The translations under genes were made by a program, and so were the position numbers. From IMG/VR virus record IMGVR_UViG_3300036651_000254, positions 1 through 29,329 of that record: a stretch of DNA of 29,329 nt, one strand, 5' to 3'. Origin of the DNA: a virus. Below are positions 9,001 through 23,380 of this stretch, piece by piece; the stretch's first letter is position 1; every line of letters starts with the position of its first letter. Below the pieces are notes generated by a model that worked only from the letters and a program-made list of their open reading frames with translations, was not told the DNA's origin and made no database searches.

Positions 9001-9423
9001 CTAGATGAGCTTGTTGCTCTTGCGCAAGTTACATTTGGCGTGCGCTGGTCTGATGTTCTCCATTGAGTGAGGGCCACCCTTTGACAGGGGGATCACATGA
9101 TCGAAATGAAGATCGGATTTTGATTCGATCGGTGCTTCACATATGTGGCAAGTCATACCGTCGCGTTCGACAATTCCTGCCCAACTGATTCGCTCGAACC
9201 CATTGCCCAGTTTGCGTGCCTTCCGGCGATACCAGCTGTCGCGAACTTTGCCCGCATTCGCGGCACGCCACGCGGCAGACGATTCTTTAGCGCGTTCGCG
9301 ATCAGCTCCCTGTTTCCAAAGGCGTTCACGATCAGGCTGGCTGCGATACAACTCACGCCTTGCAGCCCTGGACGCCTCCACGTTGCGCCAATAGCGGTCG
9401 GCATCACGGTGCTTCTGGCACAT
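9001..9423 (-). CDS. Free-standing HNH homing endonuclease
   Basis: A 140-residue HNH nuclease. The N-terminal 85 residues are Arg/Lys-rich and probably bind DNA. The HNH core lies at about 88-138: C-H-I-C zinc knuckle, 'HFDHVIPLSKGG' (catalytic His and metal ligand), 'ENIRPAHAKCN' (Asn and second zinc pair). Such genes make site-specific nicks or breaks that promote their own copying into related phages. It interrupts the usual tail terminator-major tail gene pair and is flanked by 12-base direct repeats that duplicate the end of the tail terminator gene. No good SD precedes the ATG at 9423. Confidence 0.9.
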   Translation of the reverse strand: MCQKHRDADRYWRNVEASRAARRELYRSQPDRERLWKQGADRERAKESSAAWRAANAGKVRDSWYRRKARKLGNGFERISWAGIVERDGMTCHICEAPIESKSDLHFDHVIPLSKGGPHSMENIRPAHAKCNLRKSNKLI

Positions 9424-10564: not shown

Positions 10565-11013
10565 CCGAACACCCACGGGTTAGGGATAAGCAGATTCTGG
10601 TACTCGAGCACACGTTCCGCTTCCGGCACCAAACCAGTAATCGCATCAGCTCGAGCCTTCGCCGCAGCGGCAGCATCCGCGAACGTTTCCGCAGCCGTAC
10701 CAATCTTTGACGACAACGTGACAGTCGGTGTAAGCACACCACCAGTCAACGGGTCGTACCCGATTGCCGCCCACGCAGCCGCCTGAATACACGTAGCCGT
10801 AAATAAGGCGGCGCTTATTTGCGCATCCGTCGCCAACCCTGTCAACGGGTCAACGGGGTAATACGCCATCCGGGTTTCACGCAACACCAGAGCTGTAGCA
10901 GAACGCAACAGGTTCGTCGCATTCGCCGGTGCCGGCAGACCCGTATAAGTTGCCAAATCGGAGGGTTGCGCCAACATGTCCGGGGTAACAAAATTGCCAT
11001 AAACCGCACCCAT
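10561..11013 (-). CDS. Head-to-tail adaptor
   Basis: A 150-residue protein with the mostly helical pattern of the gp15/HK97 gp6-like adaptor that docks under the portal: 'DLATYTGLPAPANATNLLRSATALVLRET', a helix around 65-85 rich in Ala ('CIQAAAWAAIGYDP') and a C-terminal helix ending 'EYQNLLIPNPWVFG'. It is preceded by AAGGGG five bases before the ATG and followed with an ATGA overlap by the stopper gene. Family and order agree well. Confidence 0.8.
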   Translation of the reverse strand: MGAVYGNFVTPDMLAQPSDLATYTGLPAPANATNLLRSATALVLRETRMAYYPVDPLTGLATDAQISAALFTATCIQAAAWAAIGYDPLTGGVLTPTVTLSSKIGTAAETFADAAAAAKARADAITGLVPEAERVLEYQNLLIPNPWVFG

Positions 11014-11022
11014 GCTGACCCC

Positions 11023-11319
11023 TTATTTGACGCTATACATTTCGATCAGATCCGTTTTGGTCTTCGCCTCGGCATCATCCGGGGTAATAGGAGTTCCGGT
11101 CGTCTGGGATATGTGCACTGCCCACCCAACCCATTCGCTCTTCGAAGCGTATGGGGGTGGTTGCACTCGTTCGGATTCCTCCACCAAAGGGGTACCGTCA
11201 GCGTTTACAAGCTTCAGGTACCCCTTCGAGAGACGATCCGCAACAGCCTCATGCAACGGCAAATCCATCGCGATGATGGTTTCCCCGTTCTCACTGAGAA
11301 TGTGGACCGTTTCAGACAT
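11023..11319 (-). CDS. Hypothetical head-region protein
   Basis: A 98-residue hydrophilic protein of unknown function between the decoration-like and adaptor genes. It has a short beta-rich N-terminus ('MSETVHILSENGETIIAM'), a helical piece around 25-40 and a C-terminal segment 'TPDDAEAKTKTDLIEMY' that resembles short C-terminal extension (SAP/Rho-N-like) helices in phage head proteins. It overlaps the preceding gene by one base, so it is co-translated with structural genes. No catalytic motif. Confidence 0.7.
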   Translation of the reverse strand: MSETVHILSENGETIIAMDLPLHEAVADRLSKGYLKLVNADGTPLVEESERVQPPPYASKSEWVGWAVHISQTTGTPITPDDAEAKTKTDLIEMYSVK

Positions 11320-11711: not shown

Positions 11712-12563
11712 TTAGGAGACGGTGACGAGGGCGGTAGCCCACGAGTCGGGACGGACGAGCTTGCCGCCGTAAAGGGTCAGACCCTTCACGGCGTCCTCGA
11801 AGGACGACTGCGGGCGGTACGCCTCAACCTTGCTGATCTGCTCAGCAAACGTGAACGCAGCCGACGTACCAGCGATGACAGCGAACTGGTTACCTGCCGG
11901 GTTCGGTGCAACGTTCGACACAATGACGTTCATGCCGTACGCAGAACCGATAACACCAGTGTTCAGAGCCGACGACACGTTACCGGCCGCGTTAGACACG
12001 AAACGGGGGTCGCGGAGAAGGCAACTGTTGTACATGTCAGGGGTGACCACAACGGTGCGACCCTCAGCAGGAACGTTCGCCTTGTCCAGTGCGTTCTTCA
12101 GCGGAACAATCACCTTGTCGATGGCGTCCGCATACCCGGTGGAAGCGGTAATGCCGACAGCACCAAGCTGGTTCGCGGTCTGTACACCCGTGTAGAACGA
12201 CGCAATGTACGCGTCAATGTTGGATGCAAGACCAAACGCAGCCTCATTGAGGGCCTGCGGGATGACGTTGCCCTTGGCCTGACGTGCATCAACATCGTCA
12301 ACACCGAACGCGAAGTACTTAGCCTGATCCACCACAAGAGTGCGCTGGTTGTCATTGACCTGCTCAGGGGTGATAACAGTCGAGTTCGGCACATACGTGC
12401 TGATCGTCGGACGACCAATGGACGTGATACGAACAGTGTCGCCAGCGTTCGCAATCTCACCTTCATAGTCACGGTTGACGAATGCGCCATACTGGAGCTT
12501 CGGACGCAACGCAACCAGAAGGTTGGCGCTCCAAATCTCTGGCCGGAAATTGGTAATAGACAC
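11712..12563 (-). CDS. Major capsid protein
   Basis: A 283-residue HK97-fold coat protein of the P22 gp5-like branch common in actinophages. The N-arm begins with F-R-P-E-I-W-S-A-N-L-L-V-A-L-R (residues 6-20), followed by 'GDTVRITSIGRPTI' and 'EGRTVVVTPDMYNSCLLRD', all typical. There is no delta domain and no protease gene nearby; a separate scaffold gene precedes it. The start is GTG at 12563, with AAAGGA 7 bases upstream, 20 bases after the scaffold stop. The N-arm motif recurs in the small protein at 18899-19279. Confidence 0.95.
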   Translation of the reverse strand: MSITNFRPEIWSANLLVALRPKLQYGAFVNRDYEGEIANAGDTVRITSIGRPTISTYVPNSTVITPEQVNDNQRTLVVDQAKYFAFGVDDVDARQAKGNVIPQALNEAAFGLASNIDAYIASFYTGVQTANQLGAVGITASTGYADAIDKVIVPLKNALDKANVPAEGRTVVVTPDMYNSCLLRDPRFVSNAAGNVSSALNTGVIGSAYGMNVIVSNVAPNPAGNQFAVIAGTSAAFTFAEQISKVEAYRPQSSFEDAVKGLTLYGGKLVRPDSWATALVTVS

Positions 12564-12583: not shown

Positions 12584-13198
12584 TTAGCCGCCTAGCAGAT
12601 GCCTGAGAAGCCCTTTAGATTGGGCATCCACGATCTCTTCGGCGGACATACGAGCGAGCTGATGCTCATCGATTTGGCCTGTTTCCCCGGTCCCGCCGAG
12701 TTCAGTACCGCTCGCTGCTGCCGCCTGGACTGCTTTGAGTAGAGGGTTCGCCGCAATGGCGGCAGTAATCGCGGCACTAATGGCCGCACCATCGGCGGGG
12801 TCAACCCCGTCGATGGAAGCTTTGAAAGACACAGAGTCGAGCAATTTGCTCGGGTCTGCGCCGGTTGCTGCGGCTGCCTTGAAAACAGCCAGTTCGCGTT
12901 TCGCGGTAGCCGCTTCAGCGGTCGACTTTTTTGCGACCTCTACAGGGTCGGGGGTGTCGGAACCGATACCAGCGGCGGCGAGAATGGCCTGCACGCGGTC
13001 TGTTTCGGTTTTCGCTTTGACACGGTTGTCGCCGGCTTCTTTGCGAAGATCGGTGATGACTTTTTGTACGGCTGGGTCGAGTGATTCGACCTTCCCATCC
13101 CAGGCCGCTGGTGTGGCAGCAACAGGTGCTGCCGGTGCAGGCGCGACCGGTGCGACAGGGGCGGATTCAACGGGTGCTGCGGGTGCCTCTTCGGGCAT
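12584..13198 (-). CDS. Capsid scaffolding protein
   Basis: A 204-residue protein with the composition of phage scaffolds: a low-complexity Pro/Ala/Val-rich N-terminus (1-35), a charged helical middle (about 45-95, 'VQKVITDLRKEAGDNRVKAK'), an Ala-rich region and a short acidic/basic C-terminal helix ('LARMSAEEIVDAQSKGLLRHL') of the kind that binds the coat protein. It lies directly before the major capsid gene. The ATG at 13198 has an AGGAGG SD 7 bases upstream; a longer in-frame start would read through the leader hairpin and is rejected. Confidence 0.85.
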   Translation of the reverse strand: MPEEAPAAPVESAPVAPVAPAPAAPVAATPAAWDGKVESLDPAVQKVITDLRKEAGDNRVKAKTETDRVQAILAAAGIGSDTPDPVEVAKKSTAEAATAKRELAVFKAAAATGADPSKLLDSVSFKASIDGVDPADGAAISAAITAAIAANPLLKAVQAAAASGTELGGTGETGQIDEHQLARMSAEEIVDAQSKGLLRHLLGG

Positions 13199-13239
13199 GA
13201 CTGGGCCTCCTGGGCTCATATCGGGTTTCACCCACGCCA

Positions 13240-13278
13240 GGTGGGACTTAAATACGAAAAGCCCCACCGAAGTGAGGC
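13240..13278 (-). promoter_or_regulatory. Leader element B (terminator hairpin plus third arm) before scaffold gene
   Basis: On the minus strand GCCTCAC (13278-13272), TTCG loop, GTGGGGC (13267-13261) and T4. Then follows CGTATTTAAG and TCCCACC, whose CCCACC (13245-13240) pairs perfectly with GGTGGG (13268-13263) at the 3' arm of the hairpin. The third arm differs from that of element A in the way needed to match its own hairpin. Confidence 0.75.
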
Positions 13279-13331
13279 TTAACAAGTAAAGAAAAGGGCG
13301 AAAAGTTTACATGTTCACGAGACGTGTAAAA

Positions 13332-17647: not shown

Positions 17648-17668
17648 GAGACAACCTCTCACATAGAG

Positions 17669-17740
17669 CTACCCACCAAGGATTCGAACCTCGATCAACT
17701 GAGTCAGAGTCAGTTATCCTGCCGGTTAGACGAGTGGGTA
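17669..17740 (-). tRNA. tRNA-Gln (CUG anticodon)
   Basis: Full cloverleaf on the minus strand: a 7-bp acceptor stem TACCCAC/GTGGGTA, a D arm with two wobble pairs, anticodon stem ACTGA/TCAGT with loop CTCTGAC (U33 present, anticodon CUG), and a T arm with TTCGAAT. Discriminator G, no encoded CCA. It sits between terS and terL and would be cut out of the late transcript. Confidence 0.92.
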
Positions 17741-17990: not shown

Positions 17991-18464
17991 CTAGCCGGCT
18001 GGGTCGTCCTTGGCTGGCTTAGACAACAGTGTTGCGAGGTCTACTTGTGTGGCTGCTACGTCTTTGCCTAGGCGTGCTGCTGCTGCTGGTGTGAAGCCCA
18101 TAGCGTTGGCGAGTCCTTGTGCTGTGGTCATCCATTTGCGTAGCAGATCCAACGGTGACACTTTGCCGCGTTCACTGTCGATGGCGTCTTCGAGGTCCAT
18201 ACCGTCCACATAGTCGGTCAACACTTCCACCCTGGCTTGTGCTACAGCCCACTGCCACAACTGGGCGTGATACTTGGGGCTGGCTAGGTAGCTGGTGGTT
18301 GGGTCTGATGCGATCTCCTCGAGCAGCCGGCGTGCGATCGGGTCTGTCCGTTTGGCACTGTAGGCACCGTGGGTGACTGATAGTTGGTTGCCGGGTTGGA
18401 ACGGTGGACGTTGGCGATCGAAGTCGGGTGTCCAGGGTGTGCCGTCAGGGTTCACCAACTCCAT
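17991..18464 (-). CDS. terS: Terminase small subunit
   Basis: A 157-residue actinophage-type small terminase. The N-terminal 'GTPWTPDFDRQRPPFQPGNQLSVTHGAYS' segment (Pro-rich, then the N-x-x-x-x-x-H-G-A motif) is characteristic. It is followed by helices around 40-130 for oligomerisation, including 'SPLDLLRKWMTTAQGLANAMGFTPAAAARLG', and a short C-terminal tail for contact with the large subunit. The ATG at 18464 has GGGAG five bases upstream. It should recognise the packaging site; that site is not identified, but the dyad-rich gap just downstream is a candidate. Confidence 0.88.
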   Translation of the reverse strand: MELVNPDGTPWTPDFDRQRPPFQPGNQLSVTHGAYSAKRTDPIARRLLEEIASDPTTSYLASPKYHAQLWQWAVAQARVEVLTDYVDGMDLEDAIDSERGKVSPLDLLRKWMTTAQGLANAMGFTPAAAARLGKDVAATQVDLATLLSKPAKDDPAG

Positions 18465-18665: not shown

Positions 18666-18902
18666 TTATTCGAGCGTGATGTGGGTGTGGAGTTTGAGTC
18701 GGAAGCCTTTGCTGCCCCAAGCGTTGGCGTACATCCATGCGTCGGCTGGTGTGTAGTTGTCTGTTTCTACCCATACGGTGTCCACATCGAAGCCGTGTGC
18801 TACTCGTTTGAGGGTGTCGGTGATGGACGTGCCCTCTATTGGTGAGAACGTGATGGTGCGGCCTAGGTCGTCTGATGTGAGTGCGGCGGCGTGGATCTTC
18901 AT
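18666..18902 (-). CDS. Hypothetical small protein
   Basis: A 78-residue protein, unrecognised. It looks alpha/beta: 'HAAALTSDDLGRTITF', then 'SITDTLKRVAHGFDVDTVWVET' and 'WGSKGFRLKLHTHITLE'. The ATG at 18902 overlaps the preceding stop in an ATGA junction and has GGAG 8 bases upstream, so translational coupling with the capsid-motif protein is likely. A longer in-frame start without SD was rejected. Last gene of the small early group before terS. Confidence 0.7.
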   Translation of the reverse strand: MKIHAAALTSDDLGRTITFSPIEGTSITDTLKRVAHGFDVDTVWVETDNYTPADAWMYANAWGSKGFRLKLHTHITLE

Positions 18903-19279
18903 GATGTGTGCTCCGCGATGATTGCCCGGTTCTCGTCGTTGAGTATGGGGATGCGTACTGTGGCAGGGAGCGGTGGGAGTGTTGCGAGCCTGGCAGCATG
19001 TTCTTCGACTGTTTCGTCGTACACCCATTCGGTGTGCTCTTTGGCTGTTACTGGGAAGATGCCTTCTTCGTAGTCGTCTTCGAGCCAGCCTTTGGCGAGT
19101 AGCTCGTCGGTGAGCTGCTGCCATTGCTTGATGGCTTGTTTGCGGGCTTTGCGTTCGGCTTTGCTGTACTTGGTGACCACACTGTGTCCGAGACGGTTCC
19201 TGCTGGTGTCGCCGTAGAAGATGTTTCGGCGCAGTGCGGTGAGTAGTTCCGCGGACCAGATTTCGGGTACGAATGTCAT
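18899..19279 (-). CDS. Protein with major-capsid N-arm motif
   Basis: A 126-residue protein of unknown function. Residues 3-17 read F-V-P-E-I-W-S-A-E-L-L-T-A-L-R and residues 22-23 Y-G. Over 21 positions 14 are identical to the N-arm of this phage's own major capsid protein. The remainder is unrelated: a basic helix (about 35-50, 'KAERKARKQAIKQWQQ'), then an acidic C-terminal half. In HK97-fold capsids the N-arm contacts neighbouring subunits, so this gene may encode a capsid-binding or capsid-regulating protein that borrows the contact surface (inference). It is the middle gene of three small overlapping genes ahead of terS. Confidence 0.85.
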   Translation of the reverse strand: MTFVPEIWSAELLTALRRNIFYGDTSRNRLGHSVVTKYSKAERKARKQAIKQWQQLTDELLAKGWLEDDYEEGIFPVTAKEHTEWVYDETVEEHAARLATLPPLPATVRIPILNDENRAIIAEHTS

Positions 19280-19494
19280 GGTGTCTCGTGCCCTTCAACG
19301 GTGAGGGGGAATACTTCGGCGTCGTCCTCGATGTGGCGCGAGTGGTGAAGTTCGAGTGTTGTCCAGTCGATGGTGTGGTCGGCGTTGGTTGCTGTGTGGT
19401 GGATGAAATCGAGTGCTGCGGCGAAGGATTGCTTGACGCCTGCGAGGCTGAATGCCGCGTTCTCGACTATGACGTCTGCATGGTACTTGGTCAT
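19276..19494 (-). CDS. Hypothetical small protein
   Basis: A 72-residue His-rich protein (about 8 His), unrecognised. It has one amphipathic helix (about 14-32, 'FSLAGVKQSFAAALDFIHH') and a strand-rich, acidic C-terminus. GGGAG precedes the ATG by about 7 bases; the stop overlaps the next start (ATGA). Leader element D lies immediately upstream, so this gene and the two after it form a separately controlled unit. Confidence 0.72.
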   Translation of the reverse strand: MTKYHADVIVENAAFSLAGVKQSFAAALDFIHHTATNADHTIDWTTLELHHSRHIEDDAEVFPLTVEGHETP

Positions 19495-19577: not shown

Positions 19578-19748
19578 TTACTCTCCGCGCATGGGTCGAT
19601 AGAGGCGATCGAGTTGGGCGACTGATGTGGTGCCGGTTCGCCCGGTCGAGTCGGTGACTTTTACGCCGCCGTCAGGGTCAACGTTGACCACTGTCACAAT
19701 GTGGCCGTTGTACTTGGCTTCTAGGCGTTGGCCGGCCTTGTAGTTCAT
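19578..19748 (-). CDS. Small SH3/KOW-like protein
   Basis: A 56-residue protein translated from ATG 19748 to TAA 19580-19578. 'YKAGQRLEAKYNGHIVTVVNVDPDGGVKVTDSTGRTGTTSVAQLDRL' alternates strands and turns as in small SH3-like or KOW barrels, which often bind nucleic acid or protein; function unknown. The start overlaps the WhiB stop by one base (TAATG), indicating translational coupling. It is the last gene before terminator/leader D. Confidence 0.7.
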   Translation of the reverse strand: MNYKAGQRLEAKYNGHIVTVVNVDPDGGVKVTDSTGRTGTTSVAQLDRLYRPMRGE

Positions 19749-19990
19749 TAGGCTGCCTTGCGTTCGTTGGCTTGGCGTCTCATTGCTCGGCGTTCTTTAG
19801 GTGATGTGCCACCCCAGATGCCGTCAGGGTCTTCGGACTGTGCGAGGGCGTACGCCAAACATTGGGCTTGCACGTCGCAGCGGGTGCAGGTGCGTTTGGT
19901 GACTCTCGCTGTTGCGCCGTCGCCTTTGCCGGGGAAGAACATGTCCGGGGCTGTTTGGGCGCACAATGCGTCATCCTGCCAGTCGAGCAT
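19748..19990 (-). CDS. whiB: WhiB-family Fe-S transcriptional regulator
   Basis: An 80-residue WhiB-like protein with the four Fe-S ligand cysteines at 10, 35, 38 and 44 (C-x24-C-x2-C-x5-C), the family turn G-I-W-G-G (57-61) and a basic C-terminal DNA-contact tail ('SPKERRAMRRQANERK'). WhiB proteins bind sigma factor region 4 and redirect RNA polymerase. Phage copies, such as WhiB of mycobacteriophage TM4, can act against host WhiB2 and affect septation or superinfection. It follows a 51-residue gene by 2 bases under a strong leaderless promoter and faces a divergent HTH gene. High confidence in family; target unknown. Confidence 0.95.
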   Translation of the reverse strand: MLDWQDDALCAQTAPDMFFPGKGDGATARVTKRTCTRCDVQAQCLAYALAQSEDPDGIWGGTSPKERRAMRRQANERKAA

Positions 19991-20469: not shown

Positions 20470-20946
20470 TTATCGGTCCATCTCGTTGAACGTGAAAAGT
20501 TCGAGTCGCTTCTTGATTACTGCGGACTCCGCATCAGCAATGTCCCGGAAGTTACCAAGGCGATATCGGATCCCGTCTTGCATGACTTCGGCCGACCACT
20601 TGTTCTCACGCTTGGCCCAGCAGACGCCGCGAATGCCCGAGCGGCTATCTTTGTGCGCCTCAAAGTTTTCGCAGTTCTGCATGGTCGTTACCGCCCGCAG
20701 GTGTTCAGGGTTTACGCACGAACGGTTCCTGCAAGAGTGGTCAATGACCATGCCCTTCGGTATTTCACCTTTGGTAAACCGGTACATGAGCCGATGCGCG
20801 TATTGGGTCTTGCCTTCGAACTGGATCGTCCCGTAGCCCGCGGTAATCTTTGCCGCAACCCATTCCCAACAGCCGGATTCGTCCGACTTATTGATGTTGG
20901 ACCAGAACTTATCGATGCGCTGCTGGGTGGTTTGACCTTTGTACAT
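20470..20946 (-). CDS. HNH homing endonuclease with AP2 domain
   Basis: A 158-residue nuclease. The HNH part (about 25-95) shows 'GCWEWVAAKITAGYG', 'HRLMYRFTKG', 'VIDHSCRNRSCVNPEHLRAV' (catalytic His70 region; Cys72, Cys77 and His82 probably hold zinc). Residues 103-145 ('SGIRGVCWAKRENKWSAEV...GNFRDIADAESA') match an AP2 DNA-binding domain, a pairing frequent in phage homing endonucleases. ATG 20946 has GGGAG 7 bases upstream; a longer in-frame start crosses the hairpin at 20971-21000 and is rejected. It sits alone between the HTH gene (convergent) and the cysteine hydrolase. Confidence 0.92.
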   Translation of the reverse strand: MYKGQTTQQRIDKFWSNINKSDESGCWEWVAAKITAGYGTIQFEGKTQYAHRLMYRFTKGEIPKGMVIDHSCRNRSCVNPEHLRAVTTMQNCENFEAHKDSRSGIRGVCWAKRENKWSAEVMQDGIRYRLGNFRDIADAESAVIKKRLELFTFNEMDR

Positions 20947-20970
20947 TTTGATACTCCCGAGGTAATGCGA

Positions 20971-21000
20971 AAGCCCCAGCAACTCGGGGTGCCGGGGCTT
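20971..21000. terminator. Bidirectional terminator hairpin
   Basis: AAGCCCC (20971-20977) pairs with GGGGCTT (20994-21000) around a 16-base loop with inner C/G runs. A T-tract follows on both strands (TTTC leftward, TTTCTG rightward). It separates the cysteine hydrolase from the HNH gene. Confidence 0.65.
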
Positions 21001-21037
21001 TCTGTCGCGGGTAATTAGTCCGCGAGTTCTTTGGTTC

Positions 21038-21577
21038 TTAGGCCTTGTCTGTGAATCCGCAATCTTTGAAGAGCGCACCGAGCGAGCCCGGGGTCACCGC
21101 ACCATCCGGTCTGTTGTCTCTGAAGAGACGGACGCCAGCATGTTGATAGGCGGCATCCGATAATTGACTACAGATATATGTTTTGCCGTTGTCGAGCCTG
21201 CGCTCTAACCATTGCGGCGTGCGCCAGTGCAGCAACTTTGCCACGCCGATCCAGATGAATGTGAGGCGGCCATAAGGTCGGCCAGGCTGCAACGCGCCAT
21301 CGATTGTTTGCGGGCCTTGAAGCAACGAGAACGCGATGATCTTGTTCTCTTGGGCTTCCGTCAGGGGGAAGTCCGACCAGGCAATGTCGAGGACGCGACC
21401 GCCGATAGCAAAGTCTGTGACGGGCATCAGTTGCACGCCTGCCGGTTCACACGAAATGACCATATGCTCTGACACGCGGTTGATCGTATGATTCCAGTGC
21501 GACCGGGTGACAGTGCGGATGACCCTACTGCTGAAACCTCGAGTGCGAACAACCGCTATTTGGGCGAGGTCGGTCAT
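21038..21577 (-). CDS. Papain-like cysteine hydrolase (YiiX/NlpC-P60 type)
   Basis: A 179-residue protein with the circularly permuted NlpC/P60 (YiiX-like) layout: the His motif comes first ('RSHWNHTINRV', His27/His30) and the catalytic Cys later in 'KTYICSQLSDAAYQHAG' (Cys136). In this fold the enzyme hydrolyses amide bonds in peptidoglycan or lipids. It has no signal peptide or membrane segment. It is far from the tail and any lysis cassette, so it may be a lysis accessory, an internal virion protein or an enzyme acting on host metabolism. GGGGG lies 5 bases before the ATG. The fold is well supported, the substrate unknown. Confidence 0.8.
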   Translation of the reverse strand: MTDLAQIAVVRTRGFSSRVIRTVTRSHWNHTINRVSEHMVISCEPAGVQLMPVTDFAIGGRVLDIAWSDFPLTEAQENKIIAFSLLQGPQTIDGALQPGRPYGRLTFIWIGVAKLLHWRTPQWLERRLDNGKTYICSQLSDAAYQHAGVRLFRDNRPDGAVTPGSLGALFKDCGFTDKA

Positions 21578-22884: not shown

Positions 22885-22958
22885 TGGGTTACCGCAGGAC
22901 TCGAACCTGCTGCCTTCGGTTCTTCAAACCGACGCTCATCCACATGAGCTTGGAACCC
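22885..22958 (-). tRNA. tRNA-Phe (GAA anticodon), acceptor stem with bulged base
   Basis: Minus strand: D arm GCTC/GAGC, anticodon stem TCGGT/ACCGA with loop TTGAAGA (U33, anticodon GAA), T arm GCAGG-TTCGAGT-CCTGC. The acceptor GGGTTCC pairs with GG-T-AACCC only if one U in the 3' strand is bulged out; without the bulge two pairs mismatch. No CCA. Either a slightly degraded gene or a functional variant. Confidence 0.82.
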
Positions 22959-23163: not shown

Positions 23164-23308
23164 TCGTCGCCGCTATTCAACCGACCTAGACGCCGAAACG
23201 TTAGCCGGGAGTTGGAGCGGTAACACCCCAGCATCGGGAGTGCGAGGCCTACTAGGGGCGTATGCATCCGTATCCCATTCAACCCACCAGTCAGCCACTG
23301 GTTCCGCG
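22959..23308. other. Inter-tRNA region
   Basis: 350 bases between tRNA-Phe and the second tRNA-Gln. It holds only two doubtful ORFs and a long-range foldback (GGGGCG/CGCCCC around 22967-23024 enclosing CCAAC/GTTGG) that looks tRNA-like but lacks a T arm. Confidence 0.5.
23173..23298 (-). CDS. Doubtful microprotein
   Basis: 41 codons from GTG 23298 to TAG 23175-23173: 'ADWWVEWDTDAYAPSRPRTPD...'. The N-terminus looks protein-like but there is only a weak GGAA as SD and the start is 11 bases after the tRNA-Gln end. Unrecognised. Confidence 0.3.
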   Translation of the reverse strand: MADWWVEWDTDAYAPSRPRTPDAGVLPLQLPANVSASRSVE

Positions 23309-23380
23309 CTGCTCACCAAGGATTCGAACCTCAACTAACAGGTTCAGGGCCTGTCGTGCTGCCAATTACACAAGTGAGCA
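23309..23380 (-). tRNA. tRNA-Gln-like (CUG) with C33
   Basis: Acceptor TGCTCAC/GTGAGCA, D arm GTGT/GCAC, anticodon stem ACAGG/CCTGT with loop CCCTGAA, T arm with TTCGAAT; discriminator G, no CCA. The anticodon position reads CUG, but position 33 is C instead of the near-universal U. It is a second Gln(CUG) gene with a body different from that at 17669. Confidence 0.8.

Follow-up and report, generated by a model that had tools for sequence, protein, structure and literature searches.

A small phage protein encoded away from the head genes begins with a segment resembling the N-terminal arm of the major capsid protein

The DNA analyzed here, referred to as the window, is a stretch of 29,329 nucleotides comprising the whole of IMG/VR virus record IMGVR_UViG_3300036651_000254, and it contains a gene for a 126-aa protein whose first part, a helix of 17 to 21 residues, resembles the conserved arm at the N-terminus of the major capsid protein (MCP). 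Judging by alignments, the part beyond the arm (approximately residues 24–97) falls within a small, unnamed family that is separate from the capsid. The reading that we prefer, to which we assign a probability of roughly 0.4, is that the segment is an ancient captured capsid arm, which would dock on the C-terminus of the scaffold or on a neighbouring MCP during head assembly. The features concerned are listed in Table 1. The window record is probably incomplete, because a related record, G001, has 43,367 bases.

Table 1. Positions in the window of the small-protein gene, its parts and neighbours, and the capsid features with which it was compared.
Feature	Positions	Strand	Evidence
Major capsid protein, HK97 fold	11712..12563	-	PHROG 267 (E 1.7e-62); AF2; PDB match
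MCP N-arm, residues 6–26 (FRPEIWSANLLVALRPKLQYG)	12486..12548	-	Alignments; AF2 secondary structure
Putative scaffolding protein, proposed partner	12584..13285	-	Directly upstream of MCP; conserved C-terminus
Putative small terminase subunit (terS), next conserved gene past the small-protein operon	17991..18464	-	Position
78-aa gene downstream of the 126-aa gene, ATGA overlap	18666..18902	-	ORF list; sequence
126-aa small-protein gene, capsid-arm-like N-terminus	18899..19279	-	ORF; L003 and L071 homologues at the same location
Family core, about residues 27–97 (GH..., W..LT.EL, EWVYDETVEEHAAR), unrelated to capsid	18989..19201	-	Alignments with L003, L071, Nonagon gp8 and L085
Capsid-arm-like segment, residues 3–23 (FVPEIWSAELLTALRRNIFYG)	19211..19273	-	MCP-arm identity; profile; nulls
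72-aa gene upstream of the 126-aa gene, ATGA overlap	19276..19494	-	ORF list

Residues 3–23 of the 126-aa protein were found to be identical to the MCP arm at 14 of 21 positions in a gapless alignment, so that the match reported in a preliminary description of this DNA was borne out by the alignment, by the profile and by the null comparisons. A single-pair BLASTP of the two proteins gave an E-value of 2e-6, and an HMM built from the N-arms of 20 related MCPs matched the 126-aa protein with an i-E of 2e-8 among 11,556 ORFs taken from the window and related loci, where it was the sole non-capsid match of such strength. The profile score was 33–34 bits, and it still ranged from 32.5 to 33.6 bits when the MCPs of the phage's own clade were left out of the profile. 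The highest score among 200,000 shuffles of the N-terminus was 12.6 bits, while among 200,000 redraws preserving its pattern of hydrophobic, polar and charged residues the maximum was 16.7 bits. When 177,635 PDB sequences were scored with the arm profile, capsids ranked first (49.6 and 22.2 bits) and the top non-capsid sequence obtained 14.4 bits. A likeness to the arm by chance is thus excluded for practical purposes. The best non-capsid PDB matches of the profile were BH3-type peptides (RPEIW-AQ), a resemblance that we judged to be coincidence.

The likeness to the MCP stops at about residue 24, and the match to PHROG 267 is confined to residues 2–30 of the 126-aa protein (E 0.019). In the AF2 model of the MCP (pLDDT 84), whose closest solved fold is Che8 gp6 (PDB 8e16), the arm is predicted as a helix spanning residues 8–22; the AF2 model of the 126-aa protein, with a helix drawn at residues 10–17, was unusable (pLDDT 42). 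In addition, group I introns (Rfam RF00028) were detected in the MCP gene region of relatives (L044:10197-10423 and 11009-11229; L048:5605-5922), and the MCP genes lie in pieces in several related virus contigs.

At the DNA level, only three of the codons for the 14 shared arm residues are identical, and the remaining 11 have changed synonymously, including a serine switch between TCC and AGC, which confirms that the DNA of the two arms is diverged, as had been noted earlier. The synonymous sites between the arms are therefore saturated, which rules out a recent duplication; recent copying from the phage's own MCP was rejected on the codons together with the unshared residues specific to that MCP. 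Shared residues that were kept despite saturated synonymous sites would imply constraint. The saturated changes, and the independent copy found in a related phage (L071, below), bear out the suggestion of selection on the peptide, or else of very old shared ancestry under constraint.

The core of the protein has homologues in two related loci, L003 (126 aa, record G001) and L071 (134 aa, record G046), and more distant ones in gp8 of the Curtobacterium phages Nonagon and Commonplace and in L085 (record G056). The core of the Nonagon gp8-like family, R-x-GH ... E-W-V-x-DE (TVEEH), of about 75 residues, is present in the window protein. A CYECxGEL segment was observed in L003, L071 and Nonagon, and it is missing from L085 and from the window protein, which has DDYEEG and no cysteines; since the segment varies within the family, it was not taken as defining. 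No function for the core was obtained from PHROGs, Pfam, NCBIfam, PADLOC or PDB, and no homologues of the 126-aa protein were found in the genome contigs or plasmids searched. The remainder of the protein, described earlier as unrelated, is indeed not capsid-like, but it does have relatives, forming a small family. The conservation of this non-capsid core in five other records excludes the alternative that the gene is an ordinary coat fragment or pseudogene.

The MCP arm itself is nearly identical in the window phage, L003 and L071 (FRPEIWSAxLLVALR), and we compared its fate with that of the arm in the small proteins. The L071 small protein has the N-terminus TFVPNVWADPLLAELR, which has partly drifted and is matched by the capsid-arm HMM with E-values of 4e-4 to 8e-4 at a large search size. 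The L003 small protein carries TYLPKAFTDELSAGIAES at the equivalent place, which falls under detection by the same HMM, so its arm has decayed while the MCP arm of that phage is intact; the arm is hence not required in every phage with an arm-type MCP. The homologues from Nonagon, Commonplace and L085 have different N-termini with no arm, and searches of their records detected no arm-type MCP; an empty search is weak evidence, and the record of L085 may not be complete. The pattern of arm presence against capsid type fits, as far as alignments of very few independent cases, one of them a decayed copy, can indicate.

A closer comparison with the capsids revealed that the window arm shares only one of the seven residues specific to its own MCP, and that it ties at 14 of 21 with the capsids of L008, L014, L018 and L019. 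Both the window and the L071 small proteins have V (F-V-P) where their own MCPs have R (F-R-P). The window arm equals the capsid consensus at nine of 11 well-conserved columns, with the differences mostly at variable columns. On these alignments, the arm follows the general capsid consensus and is no copy of the capsid of its own phage. The idea of a motif that varies with the capsid of its phage is consequently unsupported on all three counts, namely the specific residues, the V in place of R, and the loss in L003 beside an intact MCP arm; of the selected capsid-like docking peptide proposed earlier, the selection or constraint is supported and the tracking of the own capsid is not.

A capsid arm outside the capsid gene is rare. 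The isolate phage records with the arm (n = 316) contain it at one place per record, and this place was the capsid gene in 60 of 60 among the matches listed. Second arm copies in related IMG/VR records were located only in the record of L071 and, weakly, in G013, when 45 records were searched with one sequence and 40 with the profile. Arm copies as a general phage habit were not found in either set, and the exact PEIWSAELLTA pattern had no occurrence in viral contigs. Sixama gp18 and GantcherGoblin gp50 were examined and dropped as probable chance matches. The weak case in G013, the phage of which has an arm-type MCP, is a 57-aa ORF (L077:1275-1448) with an arm-like DFDPKVWSPRMLAELRKSG away from its N-terminus (profile E 8e-4); this ORF also gave a sub-threshold AbiEi-type match in Pfam.

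The ATG start of the 126-aa gene overlaps the stop of the gene upstream of it (ATGA), and such overlaps join it to both flanking genes, neither of which gave a match in family searches. It sits a short way upstream of the same putative terS in the window, L003 and L071; this terS, whose homologues have 64% identity in L071 and 62% in L003, was named by position because its family matches are weak. Gene order offers no link between the 126-aa gene and the head genes. The gene lies in a variable region of small genes near a WhiB-type transcription factor gene (19748-19990, minus strand, Pfam E 3.9e-21), which points to an actinobacterial host. The earlier wording "early region" holds insofar as the gene is upstream of the putative terS, on the same strand and in a run with the WhiB gene, but the label is positional only. 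The window also harbors two HNH endonuclease genes (9001-9423 and 20470-21078, minus strand), the latter with an additional weak AP2 domain match, and three tRNA genes (two tRNA-Gln(ctg) and one tRNA-Phe, at 17668-17740, 22886-22958 and 23308-23380), one of which is located between the putative terS and the large terminase gene, just upstream of the latter.

The loss of the arm in L003 makes a relic the strongest rival of the docking arm. An old recombination would have joined the 5′-terminal part of an MCP gene to the front of the small gene, giving a capsid-derived N-terminus with no capsid function, the helix of which now serves folding only or is being slowly lost. The decayed arm of L003 and the partial drift in L071 agree with such a history, as do the failure to track the own capsid and the fact that distant homologues manage without an arm; yet 14 of 21 residues kept at saturated synonymous divergence, and concentrated in conserved columns, are unlike free drift, and we regard the relic as unlikely overall. 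A degraded coat gene, or a recent duplication of the 5′ end of the own MCP gene, would account for the local identity to the MCP, but this is refuted by the core, which other phages conserve and which has no relation to the MCP, by the saturated synonymous sites and by the unshared residues specific to the own MCP.

Convergence, in which an N-capped amphipathic helix resembles the capsid arm by accident, is very improbable. Helices with a Pro cap and with W and L on the same face are common, the L003 version bears no more than a loose resemblance, and a weak similar segment occurs in the unrelated 57-aa ORF, whereas the score of the window protein lies far above the at most 16.7 bits of the pattern-preserving redraws and the score of the PDB non-capsids, and the arm is at the N-terminus of both proteins. 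It is also conceivable, and in our estimate quite improbable, that a host factor, either a chaperone or a capsid-recognizing sensor of immunity, binds the arm and that the small protein decoys or engages this factor. Defence proteins can sense an MCP plus a second small phage protein, as reported for CapRel (PMC11578894), and the gene is placed in the variable small-gene region near the WhiB gene; on the other hand, the two triggers of CapRel have no sequence similarity to each other (PMC11578894), no known sensor for the window capsid arm was found, and PADLOC gave no match for the window protein.

Under the preferred reading, a captured arm that docks, the 126-aa protein would be an accessory protein in two parts, with a short helix that either shares ancestry with the MCP N-arm or imitates it, and a small family-specific domain. 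The family may have acquired the arm in the ancestor of the window phage, L003 and L071, in which the arm-type capsid was already present, and the arm would be retained for letting the small protein replace an MCP arm. The likeliest docking sites would be the C-terminal helix of the scaffold or the inner face of an adjacent MCP, and a protein that docks there would travel inside the procapsid or adjust the assembly of the head. The C-terminus of the putative scaffold (GQI-E-QLA-MS-EE-A-G-L-HLL) is strongly conserved across the window phage, L003 and L071, making it a concrete candidate partner of the arm. More generally, and rather doubtfully, there might be a class of phage-encoded capsid-arm mimics, in which a captured MCP N-arm fills the site of the arm on the scaffold or shell, thereby regulating or hitch-hiking on the head assembly of the same phage. 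If the arm docks, it would be a compact natural peptide defining the binding partner of the MCP N-arm during assembly and a simple handle on how arms direct head building, and it would indicate a second use of capsid segments by phages, as docking tags beyond the head genes. Were the arm a relic and nothing more, it would be a clear case of a capsid 5′ end exchanged between unrelated genes.

Among known proteins, the Che8-like MCP family (PHROG 267; Mycobacterium phage Che8 gp6, 8e16) has the same N-terminal helix, F-x-P-E-[IV]-W-S-A-x-L-L. The small protein carries this arm motif, but it lacks the NRDYEGEI strand past the arm and the entire HK97 fold. The gp8 of the Curtobacterium phages Nonagon and Commonplace, annotated as a hypothetical protein, has a core homologous to that of the window protein, but it is without the capsid arm, lies far from the terminase genes and occurs with another MCP type. 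Mycobacteriophage Douge gp113 is a short, helical capsid cement protein whose gene is numbered far apart from the MCP gene of that phage, gp8 (PMC13033339); the window protein is likewise small, helix-rich and distant from the MCP in gene number, and by analogy of gene numbers a head component can be encoded away from the MCP gene. In phage 80alpha, the C-terminal helix of the scaffold packs against the N-arm helix of the MCP, and CpmB of SaPI1 bears a copied scaffold peptide that competes for and wins the N-arm site (PMC5644958). Both CpmB and the window protein are small proteins bearing a copy of a head-assembly peptide, the window protein that of the capsid arm rather than that of the scaffold C-terminus; CpmB is encoded by a satellite and its function is proven, whereas the window protein is encoded by the phage itself and its function is putative.
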